From Leptospiraceae bacterium (GTDB lineage: Bacteria; Spirochaetota; Leptospiria; Leptospirales; Leptospiraceae), in NCBI GenBank assembly GCA_015075105.1, contig JABTUZ010000002.1:468001-532000 (forward strand): a stretch of DNA of 64,000 nt. The letters are read 5' to 3'. Below the pieces are notes generated by a model. The model did no database searches. It was not told the origin of the DNA and saw only the letters and a program-made list of their open reading frames with translations. Every line of letters starts with the position of its first letter. Position 1 is the stretch's first letter. Below, in pieces: positions 32,058 through 38,218 of the stretch. The translations under genes were made by a program, and so were the position numbers.

Positions 32058-32106
32058 AAAATACCTCATTTGTGGTATTGACAAAGAAAACATTTCTCTT
32101 AAAATT
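32058..32106 (+). promoter_or_regulatory. Dyad operator plus promoter, copy 1 (MORN gene)
   Basis: A 28-base sequence (32058-32085) recurs with one mismatch at 33477-33504. It holds the dyad AATACC-N8-GGTATT running directly into a perfect TTGACA (32078-32083). A TAAAAT follows after 16 bases (32100-32105). The dyad abuts the -35 box, so a bound repressor or activator would control the promoter. It lies about 30-80 bases before the MORN gene. Confidence 0.65.
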
Positions 32107-32138
32107 ATTTTTTAAAATTAGTATGAGGTTTAAATAAA

Positions 32139-33428
32139 ATGAGAAATAGATTTCTATTGAGTAATATTTTTATGGTAATTGCTTTTCCCTGGCTTACACT
32201 TTTCGCTTTTACGGGTTCTGTTTCAAAAGTTTCAGGTAACAGTGTAATAATTAAAGGAGATAGAATTACTACATTGAGTTATGGTACAAGAATATATTTT
32301 GTAGAGAACGAAAAGGTTTATGGAGAAGGCGAAGTCAGGGAAATTTTTTTTACGAAGGCAATATTAAAACTAAAATCAGGATCAACAAAAAAAGGAATGT
32401 CCGCAGTAACTAAAAATGAAGATGTATATTGGAGAGTGAAGAGCGAAAATTGTAAATGTATCGAAGGTGATTGCATGGAAGGAATAGGAAAAGAAGAATG
32501 CAGGGTGGGTGGTTTTCAGTATTCTGGGAATTTTAAGAACGGGAGAAGAAACGGAAAAGGAACTGCAATTTTCTATGGAGAGGAAATAACCGGACAATGG
32601 AAAAATGATAATCTTGTTGGACAAGTAAAATGGAATAGTTATTTAGGTGAGATTTCTGGTAAATACATTGGAAATTTTCCAAACTTTTCAGGGATTTGTA
32701 TTGAAGGAGATTGCATAAACACAAAAAGCAAAAAATATATCTATCGTTTAGGATATTACACTGGTGATTTTAAGGGTGGGAATCCGTATGGGGAAGGAAT
32801 TTTTGAATGCAATAGTTTATCTCCTGCTCCATTTATAAACTGTGCAAAAGAATTTTTTCCTGACAATCCTGAAAAAGCCTCTTTGTTATCCGGAAATATT
32901 CAAAAACGACAAAAAGGAAAATGGATAGGTTATATTTTGTGTCAAATCGGAGATTGTGAAAATGGGCATGGAATTGGAATTTCAATGAGTGGACTTCGAT
33001 TAGAAGGATATTTTAAAAACGCAGTAATTCAAAAAGAAGGAATTTTAGTAAATCAGGTTGAGTTGCCTTATGATGTAAATATTGGAAATTGGAAATACGA
33101 AGGTGGGATCAAAAACAATCTTATGCATGGAGAAGGTGTATTGACATTTGCTGATGGAACAATTTTGAAAGGGACGTTCTACCAAAATTTTTATTGTAAA
33201 TCAGGAAATTGTAAAGATGGAAACGGTACAGCGATTTTGATAGACGGAAGGGAATATACTGGAGATTTTCAGAATTTTGAATGGCACGGGAAAGGTGCAC
33301 TAAAATTAAAAAATAGCGGTATCTACCAAGGATTTTTCCAAGAGAATTCTTTTTGGGAAGGTTTTTATATGAATGAAAAAGGAGAAATCACAGAGAACTA
33401 CAAAGATGGACAGAGAATAGGAAAATAA
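32139..33428 (+). CDS. Secreted MORN-repeat protein with CxxGxC motifs and an N-terminal beta module
   Basis: A 429-residue protein with a signal peptide (hydrophobic 5-24). Residues about 24-93 (GSVSKVSGNSVIIKG onward) form a small beta-rich module that resembles segments of two other proteins encoded nearby. The rest is MORN repeats such as YSGNFKNGRRNGKGTAIFY, YTGDFKGGNPYGEGIF and YTGDFQNFEWHGKGALKL, interrupted by four CxxGxC motifs (CIEGDC twice, CQIGDC, CKSGNC), which may form periplasmic disulfides. Function unknown; MORN repeats commonly mediate lipid or protein contacts. Preceded by the dyad promoter shared with the downstream operon. Confidence 0.8.
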   Translation: MRNRFLLSNIFMVIAFPWLTLFAFTGSVSKVSGNSVIIKGDRITTLSYGTRIYFVENEKVYGEGEVREIFFTKAILKLKSGSTKKGMSAVTKNEDVYWRVKSENCKCIEGDCMEGIGKEECRVGGFQYSGNFKNGRRNGKGTAIFYGEEITGQWKNDNLVGQVKWNSYLGEISGKYIGNFPNFSGICIEGDCINTKSKKYIYRLGYYTGDFKGGNPYGEGIFECNSLSPAPFINCAKEFFPDNPEKASLLSGNIQKRQKGKWIGYILCQIGDCENGHGIGISMSGLRLEGYFKNAVIQKEGILVNQVELPYDVNIGNWKYEGGIKNNLMHGEGVLTFADGTILKGTFYQNFYCKSGNCKDGNGTAILIDGREYTGDFQNFEWHGKGALKLKNSGIYQGFFQENSFWEGFYMNEKGEITENYKDGQRIGK

Positions 33429-33476
33429 TAATCATTCTAAATAATTCAAAAATAATTTATTTTTTTAAAAAAATCA

Positions 33477-33525
33477 AAAATACCTAATTTGTGGTATTGA
33501 CAAACTTTTTGAAAACCAGTATGTT
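33477..33525 (+). promoter_or_regulatory. Dyad operator plus promoter, copy 2 (four-gene operon)
   Basis: The second copy of the 28-base element, with one mismatch in the loop of the AATACC-N8-GGTATT dyad. TTGACA is at 33497-33502, followed after 17 bases by TATGTT (33520-33525). It lies 47 bases before the lipoprotein gene at 33572 and should drive the operon to 38218. Confidence 0.65.
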
Positions 33526-33571: not shown

Positions 33572-34966
33572 ATGAAAAAATATATTTTTATGTTTCTGAT
33601 AGTATCGAGTTTCTTAGCAAATTGTGCTACCATGCCAAAAAGTGGGTATCCGGTAGCTAACGAGAATTTAAACACGGAGCCTACAGAAGAAATTTTAGAA
33701 TTATTAGACGAGCTTGCAGGTTGTGTAGGAGAAGTCTCATCTGAAAAAATAAGAAAAAATTTATTTCTTGCATCCTATCAAAAAAAAGGGAACTTGGGTG
33801 AAATAAAAAATTTATTAAACTTATGTAAAACCGGTGCTATTCAAGAATTTGAATCAGAGGGAGCTACAACTGATATAGAAATGTCCAAGAGATTTACGTT
33901 GTATAGCGAAAGAGCATTGGACAAAGACTATAGATTTGGTAGCTGGACTTCTCGTCAGGCAAGTTGCAAATACCACAATTTATCAGGAAATTTTGCGATA
34001 TATCTTGGCTTTGCGTATGCGTTTGGATTCACAAATTGTATCGACTATTCTGGTAGGAGATGGTTTGGTCAAGGTTTTTCAATGGGGTTAACAGTAGGAA
34101 TTGGCGCTCATGCTGGATTTACTCAAATTGACGATAAAGTAACAAGCACTCTCCCATTTTCGCCATTTTCAAGTAATGGAATTGTAGCAGGCAGTATGTG
34201 GGGAGCTTTTGGAGTTGGGTATTTCTATAAAGACGCAACAGGATATAACGAAGCTATAACAAAAGGGCCAGTAATAGGTGTTGGAATAGGATACGATGGG
34301 TTTCACTGGAGAATGGGAGGCGTGATTATTCCAAGATTTCTATTACCAAAAAACAGAGAGATTCACCATGAATGGCTAAAGGTAATTTATTTTTTAAAAA
34401 GAGACCTTTTGATTTCTCGTGTGACTAAAATAACTGGAAAAATCAGAATCGGAAAGAATCCTAAATCAGATATATTTGTAGTAATTAATAAATCCACATT
34501 AGATCCTCAAACTATTACAGATATAAATACTATAATAGTTAATAAGGATTTTATAGTTCATGGTTCAGATACAAAAGAAACTAATGTTGTTAGAATCGAA
34601 AAAATAGATAAGAGTTCAACAGCTATTGAATTTGTCGCTAAAGCTAAAATTCAAAAAGGCACAGTTTCTCCGGATTCTTTAGCGATTCTCGATTTAACAA
34701 ACACTCTTCCAAAAGAATCTATAGAAGAAAAGAAAAAAGAAATCCTATTTAAAGGAAACGTATTTGCAGTAGCAGGAAATTCTATTACAATCTCTACGAC
34801 AAATGCGAAATCTGTCCGGGTAGGTCAAGAGATTATATTCTTGGATAGTGCAGGAAAAGAAATTGGTAAAGGGAAAATTACAACTACATCGTTTACAAAT
34901 ATCAAAGTTAGTTTGACCTCCGGTAGAGCAGAAAAAGATAGAGACGCTGTAATTTATAAAAAATAA
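33572..34966 (+). CDS. Putative lipoprotein with C-terminal beta module, function unknown
   Basis: A 464-residue protein with lipobox LANC (Cys18). A helical N-terminal region with two cysteines (to about 130) is followed by a glycine- and aromatic-rich section (about 140-250: FAIYLGFAYAFGFTNC, GLTVGIGAHAGFTQ, GPVIGVGIGYDGFHWRMGG) that may be membrane-associated or barrel-like. The last 70 residues (GNVFAVAGNSITIST onward) resemble the N-terminal modules of the MORN protein at 32139 and the protein at 37199. Not recognised as a named family. First gene of a tight operon, 14 bases before the TPR gene. Confidence 0.7.
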   Translation: MKKYIFMFLIVSSFLANCATMPKSGYPVANENLNTEPTEEILELLDELAGCVGEVSSEKIRKNLFLASYQKKGNLGEIKNLLNLCKTGAIQEFESEGATTDIEMSKRFTLYSERALDKDYRFGSWTSRQASCKYHNLSGNFAIYLGFAYAFGFTNCIDYSGRRWFGQGFSMGLTVGIGAHAGFTQIDDKVTSTLPFSPFSSNGIVAGSMWGAFGVGYFYKDATGYNEAITKGPVIGVGIGYDGFHWRMGGVIIPRFLLPKNREIHHEWLKVIYFLKRDLLISRVTKITGKIRIGKNPKSDIFVVINKSTLDPQTITDINTIIVNKDFIVHGSDTKETNVVRIEKIDKSSTAIEFVAKAKIQKGTVSPDSLAILDLTNTLPKESIEEKKKEILFKGNVFAVAGNSITISTTNAKSVRVGQEIIFLDSAGKEIGKGKITTTSFTNIKVSLTSGRAEKDRDAVIYKK

Positions 34967-34980
34967 AAAAGGAGATTGAA

Positions 34981-35694
34981 ATGAAAAAAAAATTATTAAC
35001 ACTTGCGATTATACTTTTCTTTGTGTTTTGCAAAGAAAAGTATAATCCGAATTCTGCAGGAATTCAAAAATCTGAAATTAACCAGAAAATTAATGAATTT
35101 ATGGTAAAAGCAGAGAAGACAACGGATGATAATGAGAAGGCTGCGTTTTGGGGTGAAGCCTCTGAATTGCTATGCGAAAAAGGAGACTTTAAAAAGGCTC
35201 TTCAGGTTGCAAGGGATGCAAAACGACTAAACCCTACGAATAAAAAAGCACTTACATCTATCGCCGAAAATTATTTGTATGAAAGAAAATTTAGCGAAGC
35301 TGAAATTGTATTGCAAGAAGTTCTTGGAAGAGATGCAGGTTATGACAGAGCTAATTATTTGATTGGGAATGTCTATCTTTTTAAAAATAAATTACCGCAA
35401 GCAGAAAAGTATTTCCAAAAAGCGATTGATTCAAACCCAACCCATTTAACAGCACAAATAAATTTGGCTGTTGTATTTGATAGAAAAGGAAATTCTTTGG
35501 AAGCAATTAAAATTTTAGATAGAGCAATTGAAAAAAATCCAACAATGGCAGAGCCGTATAAAAATGCAGGAATTCTTTCCGAGAAGTCCGGAAAAAAAGC
35601 AGAAGCGAAAAAGTACTATGAGAAGTATTTAGAATTAAATCCTTATGGGGACGATGTGGAGGCAGTCAAACTTTGGCTGAAAAATTTAGCATGA
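34981..35694 (+). CDS. TPR-repeat lipoprotein
   Basis: A 237-residue protein with signal peptide and lipobox FVFC (Cys17). The mature part has about four to five tetratricopeptide repeats, for example KKALTSIAENYLYERKFSEA, ANYLIGNVYLFKNKLPQAEK and LTAQINLAVVFDRKGNSLEA, ending in a helix. It is likely an envelope scaffold for the neighbouring products. An AGGAG precedes the ATG. The stop overlaps the next start by ATGA, so translation is coupled. Confidence 0.85.
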   Translation: MKKKLLTLAIILFFVFCKEKYNPNSAGIQKSEINQKINEFMVKAEKTTDDNEKAAFWGEASELLCEKGDFKKALQVARDAKRLNPTNKKALTSIAENYLYERKFSEAEIVLQEVLGRDAGYDRANYLIGNVYLFKNKLPQAEKYFQKAIDSNPTHLTAQINLAVVFDRKGNSLEAIKILDRAIEKNPTMAEPYKNAGILSEKSGKKAEAKKYYEKYLELNPYGDDVEAVKLWLKNLA

Positions 35695-37202
35695 AAAAAC
35701 TGATAATTAGTATAATTGGAATTTGTTTAGTGGTTTCGTCTAACGTATATTCTGTAACAGCAGGAGTTACGGTAGTAAAGACTCATGACTCTGGTTTAGA
35801 TCAAGAAAAAATCTCTAACTCTTTGCAAACAGAGCTGCAAAAACAAAAAGGCGTAACGATTCGAGATAGAGATGCTTTTCAAGTTGCATGGGAGCAAGTC
35901 ACTCAATGCAAGGCAGGGATAGTAAAGTGTGACGATAACAACGCCGAAATGAAAATGTTGAATATACTTGTATTTGGGGATATTCACAAACATACCGATG
36001 GTTACATATTCAATCTTCGAGCTGTTAGCCAAAAAACTTATTCAGTTCTGTACTCAGGAAGTATCACTGGGAAAAACCCGGATAACCTTGTGGTGGACTT
36101 AGCGTCTGAGTTGAATGATAAATTCAAAGCAATTGCATCCAGTGAAACTTCGTTTGAAGATCAAGAGAAACAGGGAGAGGGTGGTTTTAGGATTGCTATT
36201 TATAAAATCAAGGCATCCAATGAGGCAGCGCAAAAAATTCCAATAGGAAATATACTCGATTCAGTGCTCACAACCGCATTCAAAAATAAAGGTAAATTTC
36301 AAATCGTAGAAAATTCACGTATTGCAGATATCATGAATGAGAAGAGGCTTGCGATGAGCGGGCTTGTAGAAACTAACGCACCACTTTTTGAAGCGAGAGG
36401 AATAACTCATTATCTTGCCGGCTCTTTAAAAGTTTACAATAACGATCGAGTTCTTAGCTACCAAATTATAAATGTAAAAACCGGTCTTCCAATTGTGACT
36501 TCAATGATAGAATGGGAAGACGAGAAACAACTTGCTGCTGCAATGGAAGAGGTTGCTTCAAAAACAAATGAAGAAGTTTTTCACGTAAACGGAAAATTAA
36601 CAGTGGAAGCTTGCGAACCCGATGGGGTTTCTATTTTTATCGAAAACAAGGAGCAAGGTTCGAGACTTGATGAGATTGGATTATGTCCTAAAACAATCGA
36701 AGACATGCCAAAAGGAAAATACACTCTTGTATTTAAACACGAAGATAGAGACACTATGAGCCAAGAAATTGAGATCAAGGCTATGGAGACGACCAAAGTT
36801 CCATTGATAAAAATGCCTCCAATAGATATGAGTGCTTTTCAAAATGGTGGATCATTAGAAGGGCAGGGAAAATATCAGGAAGCTATTGCAAGCTATCAAG
36901 AATTTTATAAGCGTTACCCAAGACATAGAATGAGTGGGTATGCAATGTATCGGGAAGGGTTTATTACTCAGATTTATTTAAAGAACTTTGAAAAAGGCAG
37001 AAAAATTCTTGAGGATGTGATAAAAAGAAGACCTGATTATGAAATTCTAACCGAAGCATACACAGGAATTGCATTTGGTTATCAGGCTGCAGGAAATAGT
37101 GAAAAGAGTAAAGAAATTTTCAAGATGATTATTGAGCAGTATCCAGGAACATCTGCGGCTGATGCTGCAAGAACATGTTTGGATACGGGGTGCAGACTTT
37201 GA
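35691..37202 (+). CDS. Secreted CsgG-like/PEGA/TPR multidomain protein
   Basis: About 503 residues with an N-terminal signal peptide (MKKLIISIIGICLVVSSNVYS). Residues about 20-290 contain two segments reminiscent of CsgG/curli-assembly-type or FlgO-type folds (a TPR-coupled outer-membrane assembly class), including AIYKIKASNEAAQKIPIGNI and ITHYLAGSLKVYN. A PEGA-like surface domain follows (about 300-375: GKLTVEACEPDGVSIFIENK, MPKGKYTLVFKHEDR). The C-terminus has tetratricopeptide-like repeats (YQEAIASYQEFYKRYP, KSKEIFKMIIEQYPG). Domain names are by eye. Started at ATG 35691 because it gives the signal peptide and ATGA coupling. Confidence 0.65.
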   Translation: MKKLIISIIGICLVVSSNVYSVTAGVTVVKTHDSGLDQEKISNSLQTELQKQKGVTIRDRDAFQVAWEQVTQCKAGIVKCDDNNAEMKMLNILVFGDIHKHTDGYIFNLRAVSQKTYSVLYSGSITGKNPDNLVVDLASELNDKFKAIASSETSFEDQEKQGEGGFRIAIYKIKASNEAAQKIPIGNILDSVLTTAFKNKGKFQIVENSRIADIMNEKRLAMSGLVETNAPLFEARGITHYLAGSLKVYNNDRVLSYQIINVKTGLPIVTSMIEWEDEKQLAAAMEEVASKTNEEVFHVNGKLTVEACEPDGVSIFIENKEQGSRLDEIGLCPKTIEDMPKGKYTLVFKHEDRDTMSQEIEIKAMETTKVPLIKMPPIDMSAFQNGGSLEGQGKYQEAIASYQEFYKRYPRHRMSGYAMYREGFITQIYLKNFEKGRKILEDVIKRRPDYEILTEAYTGIAFGYQAAGNSEKSKEIFKMIIEQYPGTSAADAARTCLDTGCRL

Positions 37203-38218
37203 AAATTGTAATATTTTTGCTTTTATCTATTACGGGAAATTTACTCGCTGTTGATTTTGGAGAGGTAAAAGACTTCAACCCGACTACAAAAAGTATCACA
37301 GTAAGGCACGTATCTCCGGCAGCGTTTCGTCCCGGTCAGACCTTGTATATCTTTAGAGATAAAAAAGAGATAGGACAGATGAATGTTGGTATGGTACATT
37401 TCTCTTCTTTAAATGGAAAATTAATTTCAGGCGATCCTAAAGATAAAGATTTAGTAATTATTAACCAAACTGATATAGGTAAAATTGCAGGTCTAAAACC
37501 GGAGTCGGTGTCTTTTAAAGATATTGGTTCAATTGCAAAGATGTGGATAATTAAAGCAAACTATTCACTGAAATCTTTAGAGCAACAAACAAGGCCATTG
37601 GCTTTTTTAGATATAATTGGAGCAAGAGAAACAGGGAAAAATTATTATTCACAATTTCCGGTGAAAGATATTGACTCAATTGTAATGGAATGGGATGGAA
37701 CAAATTTCCGTGGAAAATCAGTTCAACTAAAAAACAGAAAAAAGTTTTTGATTGATGAAGTTTTGTCTTCCAATATCCACAAAAAATTAGCTCCTCGTGA
37801 TGCCACAGAAAAAGCAGACTGTGTTATTAAGTTTGTAAAATCTCAAGAAACATCAAGAGATATACCGGATACATTGAAGTTAAAAGTAAAAATTGAAGAT
37901 GCAAAGTCTGAATATGGAGAAAAACATTTTTTTCTTAAAGCCTATTCAAATTCGATTTATCTAGATGAATTTTACATTGATCCTAATAAAATAGCTAAGG
38001 ATATTTTTGAAGGTGAATATCATATACCGATGTATTTACTCACTCCAGGAATTAATAAATTAGAGTTATATGTTTCTGAATCGGAAGATTCTTCTGGTAA
38101 CTTTGAAAAAGGAGAATCTCGTTTGATTGCGGGGAAAGAAATGGATGTGAAAGACGGGGATTTTAAATTAGAAATACAATTACTTGGTGATGGAAAAAAA
38201 TTTAAGATAGGCAAATAA
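37199..38218 (+). CDS. Secreted protein with N-terminal beta module, function unknown
   Basis: About 339 residues. I start at TTG 37199, which overlaps the preceding stop (TTGA) and gives a clean signal peptide (KIVIFLLLSITGNLLA). An ATG at 37175 would add eight residues with no ribosome binding site. Residues about 20-90 (GEVKDFNPTTKSITVRH, then GQTLYIFRDKKEIGQ) resemble the modules in the proteins at 32139 and 33572. The C-terminal part (about 210-335) is beta-rich. Last gene of the operon, followed by a hairpin inside the convergent peptidase gene. Confidence 0.65.
   Translation: MKIVIFLLLSITGNLLAVDFGEVKDFNPTTKSITVRHVSPAAFRPGQTLYIFRDKKEIGQMNVGMVHFSSLNGKLISGDPKDKDLVIINQTDIGKIAGLKPESVSFKDIGSIAKMWIIKANYSLKSLEQQTRPLAFLDIIGARETGKNYYSQFPVKDIDSIVMEWDGTNFRGKSVQLKNRKKFLIDEVLSSNIHKKLAPRDATEKADCVIKFVKSQETSRDIPDTLKLKVKIEDAKSEYGEKHFFLKAYSNSIYLDEFYIDPNKIAKDIFEGEYHIPMYLLTPGINKLELYVSESEDSSGNFEKGESRLIAGKEMDVKDGDFKLEIQLLGDGKKFKIGK

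Follow-up and report, generated by a model that had tools for sequence, protein, structure and literature searches.

Within the window analysed here, a 64-kb stretch (C2:468,001-532,000) of a 3.42 Mb Leptospiraceae genome whose assembly has 4 contigs, including the two large ones C1 (2.0 Mb) and C2 (1.4 Mb), a 28-base element stands before two neighbouring transcription units for envelope proteins, which raises the question of whether both answer to one regulator and, if so, to which. The original prediction had described two copies differing at one base, in each of which AATACC-N8-GGTATT runs into a perfect TTGACA followed 16-17 bases on by a -10-like box, and this description holds at both places (Table 1). 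It had also let the repeat end with the -35 box, which is not quite exact, as 2 bases past TTGACA belong to it. AATACC-N8-GGTATT has only two matches in the 64-kb window, at 32060 and 33479, and none in 100 shuffles. Copy 1 begins 16 bp past the stop codon of a Kef-type transporter gene (named by eye from its sequence), and copy 2 begins 50 bp past the MORN gene. As had been noticed earlier, the ORF list places no regulator gene beside either copy; the candidate proposed below sits on the other large contig, C1.

Table 1. Features of the window, the eight genomic sites and the candidate regulator (positions without a contig name are those of the window).
Feature	Position	Strand	Remarks
28-mer, copy 1	32058-32085		AAAATACCTCATTTGTGGTATTGACAAA
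Putative operator, copy 1	32060..32079	+	20-bp dyad AATACC-TCATTTGT-GGTATT
7-2-7 core, copy 1	32062-32077		TACCTCA-TT-TGTGGTA
-35 hexamer, copy 1	32078..32083	+	TTGACA (perfect); abuts 7-2-7 core, overlapped by dyad
-10-like box, copy 1	32100..32105	+	TAAAAT, spacer 16 bp; consensus match only
Target 1	32139..33428	+	Exported MORN-repeat protein, 429 aa, signal-like N-terminal segment
28-mer, copy 2	33477-33504		AAAATACCTAATTTGTGGTATTGACAAA; one mismatch to copy 1
Putative operator, copy 2	33479..33498	+	Dyad AATACC-TAATTTGT-GGTATT
7-2-7 core, copy 2	33481-33496		TACCTAA-TT-TGTGGTA; same as core before RR1 gene
-35 hexamer, copy 2	33497..33502	+	TTGACA (perfect); overlapped by dyad
-10-like box, copy 2	33520..33525	+	TATGTT, spacer 17 bp; consensus match only
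Target 2, gene 1	33572..34966	+	Lipoprotein-like (LANC), 464 aa; no Pfam family at 0.01
Target 2, gene 2	34981..35694	+	TPR lipoprotein-like, 237 aa
Target 2, gene 3	35673..37202	+	Exported CsgG-like/TPR protein, 509 aa
Target 2, gene 4	37175..38218	+	Exported protein, 347 aa; no Pfam family
S1	window copy 1		MORN gene
S2	window copy 2		Four-gene CsgG/TPR lipoprotein operon
S3	C1:710,509		Cache/PAS-type kinase
S4	C1:46,855		Small Cys-containing exported protein, 180 aa
S5	C1:424,547		RR1 + kinase
S6	C1:589,424		DUF5683 gene
S7	C2:1,238,067		Lipoprotein
S8	C2:1,240,391		Lipoprotein
RR1	C1:424,624-425,250 (L085:7625-8254)		NarL-type response regulator, 209 aa

A genome-wide search, which had been proposed together with the original prediction, was carried out with the pattern ACYHNATTTGWGGTATTGACA, allowing at most one mismatch, in 48 genomes of the class and with the reversed pattern as a control. 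It gave 8 matches in the genome itself (reversed control, 0), 3 in one relative, the Leptospiraceae MAG JANYCR (G007), and none in the rest, against a single match of the reversed pattern over all 48 genomes. Of the G007 sites, one (L230) falls within a gene of the other strand and is probably a chance match. According to the ORF maps, all eight sites of the genome itself are intergenic and each is oriented toward a gene; the element is a small family of eight sites, not a two-copy repeat. Could it nonetheless be a duplicated promoter, or a mobile or REP-like element, devoid of regulatory meaning? Sites 7 and 8 do have a duplicated look, being alike over about 70 bp beyond the element, but at the other sites the similarity ends at the element's edges, there are only eight copies, all oriented before genes, and relatives retain the architecture with an altered sequence (see below), so that this reading is extremely improbable. 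The mobile repeat was rejected because the copies are neither randomly placed nor randomly oriented. An exact-pattern scan of a wider set of genome contigs matched 16 contigs; only two matches were from the same lineage, both in the JANYCR MAG, the remaining ones being single and scattered across unrelated bacteria and one archaeon. Most single-mismatch matches of the 18-bp core are intragenic and were set aside as chance.

Judged by sequence, the eight transcription units behind the sites encode mostly exported or envelope proteins. For the six non-signalling units, ten N-termini were scored with a heuristic for simple export signals (not SignalP), which recognised nine of them; the tenth (S4) is strongly hydrophobic and lacks an early Lys/Arg. 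By the same heuristic, 17 of the 48 gene-like ORFs of the window carry such a signal, membrane proteins included. Common control would thereby be assigned to envelope proteins of unknown role, namely the MORN, CsgG-like and DUF5683 proteins. As to footprints, the MORN gene gave repeat-level matches only, hence its promoter yielded none, and the CsgG-like window gene has no orthologue in the family usable for promoter comparison (one match, E=1e-3). Between 32139 and 38218, the MORN protein and the products of operon genes 1 and 4 appear by eye to have similar segments at the N- or C-terminus, with a short G-x-V-type motif; no Pfam family is assigned to these segments.

The layout of the element points to a family of regulators. 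Written as TACCTMA-TT-TGTGGTA, the dyad consists of two inverted heptamers separated by a 2-bp spacer (7-2-7) and abutting the -35 hexamer. Sites of NarL follow this '7-2-7' arrangement (PMC9314961, PMC2718512); in E. coli, NarL recognises such inverted repeats with the heptamer TACYYMT (PMC4886647), and at the ogt promoter it can activate when bound to a site with its centre at -44.5, 32 bp ahead of the -10 box (PMC7419079, PMC9314961). By geometry, a spacer of 17 bp puts the dyad centre here 31.5 bp ahead of where the -10 box begins, which predicts a position near -44.5, some 44 bp ahead of the predicted start. The element thus resembles the ogt operator of NarL/NarP in its TAC-type heptamers, inverted repeat, 2-bp spacer and centre about 32 bp before the -10 box, and its candidate regulator would, like NarL and NarP, combine a receiver with a GerE domain. 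It differs in that TTGACA directly abuts the 7-2-7 core, in its envelope targets and putative 7TM-type kinase, with no link to nitrate seen, and in its last heptamer base: TACCTCA and TACCTAA match TACYYMT at 6 of 7 positions and TACCACA at 5 of 7, and because the heptamers end in A instead of T the element is only NarL-like, not a NarL site proper. Another two-component regulon of the wider lineage, HemKR of Leptospira biflexa, has a hem-box consisting of a direct repeat, TGACA-N6-TGACA, and HemR is of the OmpR/PhoB type (PMC11426443). Although the sites described here also contain TGACA, each combines a single one with an inverted repeat, and a hem-box reading was rejected since each window copy with its flanks holds one TGACA and no direct repeat. 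A generic score for 7-2-7 pairs with TTGACA that ignores base identity was too weak, doing no better overall than shuffles (6 of 45 core genes versus 4 of 28 controls); the evidence therefore rests on sequence-specific scores and individual dyads. Dyads of this kind on a TTGACA-like box were also seen upstream of two more distant NarL-type regulator genes, at L308 (G042:C19:3100-6749) and L294 (G014), where they read AATACGCTATATAGCGTATTGACA and AATACCCTATTTTGAGTATTGATT, respectively.

Since the dyad has the NarL layout and one site precedes it, the response regulator gene RR1 is the likely source of the regulator. S5 lies about 75 bp upstream of RR1, and its 7-2-7 core is identical to that of window copy 2. 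The RR1 protein carries a Response_reg domain (PF00072, 1.7e-14) and a GerE/LuxR HTH (PF00196, 8.7e-17), which places it in the NarL/FixJ family; its D56, the phospho-acceptor Asp, and K106, a conserved receiver Lys, are invariant in 8 aligned response regulators, and its closest solved relatives by sequence are VraR (E=4e-20) and NarL. The gene that follows encodes a kinase-like protein with a 7TMR-DISM match below the Pfam cut-off (3.8e-4), a weak HisKA_3 match (E=0.14) and, by eye, an H-box-like motif, MHDHIG. With VraR/LiaR, which respond to cell-envelope stress in Firmicutes, RR1 would share a NarL-type two-component design and an envelope theme, whereas its sensor would be of the 7TM type and its targets would be spirochaete exported proteins; this likeness is one of sequence and does not imply orthology. 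The element is thus probably where a NarL-type response regulator binds, most likely RR1 signalled by its putative kinase: an operator joined to the -35 box in front of eight units that include the regulator's own gene. An operator overlapping the -35 box and serving one regulator common to the two envelope units of the window, as initially proposed, fits all of this evidence. Autoregulated NarL-type two-component regulons are a known kind; what is added here to the two-copy repeat is a regulon of defined extent and, for a lineage that has received little study, a candidate regulator that can be named. Near the response regulator gene in both G000 and G007, a protein combining, by eye, 7TM, SpoIIE-phosphatase-like and TPR parts (L085:2727-5414 and L200:5403-7931, both on the minus strand; 34% identity) suggests a conserved neighbourhood.

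Global regulators commonly control a two-component pair, and only one of the eight sites is at RR1, whose binding is read from sequence. A different regulator might hence bind the sites, with RR1 and its kinase mere members of the regulon, but this is rather unlikely given the NarL 7-2-7 layout of the dyad, the occurrence of own variants near the start of same-family regulator genes in several other genomes, and the shift of half-site sequence with regulator clade. The second point comes in part from a matrix trained on six sites not belonging to response regulator genes and scanned over the 400 bp upstream of such genes. Scores of at least 13 bits (13-32) were found upstream of 6 of the 11 response regulator genes of the family (RR1, 32.3; G007_C258, 22.4; G002_C34, 18.9; G007_C333, 17.9; G005_C178, 15.5; G006_C29, 13.0), while 24 other GerE genes reached 8.4 at most. 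The site faces away from the regulator gene in G007_C333, G005 and G006, and in G007_C333 it faces a divergent gene run including lipoprotein-like genes. Class-wide, over 73 response regulator genes, those of the RR1-like group, which was set by profile score and tree independently of the sites, scored above other NarL-type ones (p=2.8e-6, or 6.0e-6 without RR1), several of the group having no clear upstream site by this matrix. Comparable dyads stand at 3 of 28 control regulator genes; the architecture is therefore not exclusive to the RR1-like subfamily and may be shared by related regulators.

Across relatives, the half-sites co-vary with the regulator. In G040, from another family, the response regulator gene comes after two genes for 7TM-type kinases and is itself preceded by TAGCCAA-TT-TGGGCTA-TTGACA. 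The dyad TAGCCAA-TT-TTGGCTA-TTGACA precedes a G040 gene that looks CsgG-like and DUF5683-like by eye, with neither family named by Pfam, and a close variant, TAGCTAA-AA-TTGGCTA-TTGACA, is found upstream of a gene of the CsgG-like, outer-membrane type (again by eye). The G040 regulator clusters with RR1 in the tree with moderate support (80/82). Sites precede both a response regulator gene and a DUF5683 gene in G002, the product of the latter being 36% identical to that of S6. A perfect variant dyad, TATCCCA-TT-TGGGATA-TTGACA, precedes the lipoprotein gene that adjoins the kinase gene of the paralogue RR3, and the half-site variants TAGCCAA, TATCCCA and TACCCAA all adjoin their own regulator genes. 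Members of the sister clade that includes RR2 have a GC-rich 7-2-7 palindrome upstream of their own genes, CCCCCTG-NN-CAGGGGG, found with at most 3 mismatches in 16 of 20 members and in none of 25 other core response regulators or 28 controls; each genome holds only 0-7 copies (loci L199, at G000:C1:543000-552000 upstream of RR2, L279, L282 and L319). In this second clade most recognition helices have the sequence HTV-x-GYVK or HTVHDYVK; in RR1-like proteins most have T-x-R-x-H/Q. Whether all of this reflects a lineage-wide NarL-type two-component family in the class of this genome, in which the promoter architecture (7-2-7 plus TTGACA) is kept, the half-site letters (TACCTMA, TAGCCAA, TATCCCA; CCCCCTG-NN-CAGGGGG in the sister clade) follow the recognition helix, and CsgG-like, DUF5683 and lipoprotein envelope genes are controlled, is an evenly balanced question; such a family, if real, would amount to a code, provided by nature, for DNA recognition by LuxR-type HTH domains. 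As several paralogous regulators have distinct sites by their own genes, each regulator can be matched with its half-site in one genome after another, and the rules by which NarL-type regulators recognise DNA thereby become open to direct testing.

How RR1 would act can be sketched from these data. The putative 7TM-type kinase may sense a signal, probably related to the envelope, and phosphorylate RR1, a dimer of which would bind the two heptamers of TACCTMA-TT-TGTGGTA, centred some 44 bp ahead of the predicted start, and, beside RNA polymerase at TTGACA, set transcription of the eight units, the RR1 gene included. Activation appears somewhat more probable than repression, because the centre position is near -44.5, although a good -35 box would suit repression too. 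Promoters that depend on an activator do not usually have a -35 box so near the consensus, and such a box is also compatible with a repressor: the RR1 dimer could cover the -35 box of otherwise strong promoters and leave on signal, with negative autoregulation. This possibility, which must be rated as on the unlikely side, agrees with the perfect TTGACA in 6 of the 8 sites and with the dyad abutting the hexamer, but less well with a centre from which NarL activates and with the -10 boxes, most of which are imperfect. Sites 7 and 8 have no good -10 box at 15-19 bp; their promoters (L009/L010), whose shared 70 bp look like a tandem duplication, carry a -10-like TATGGT separated from the -35 box by about 20-21 bp.
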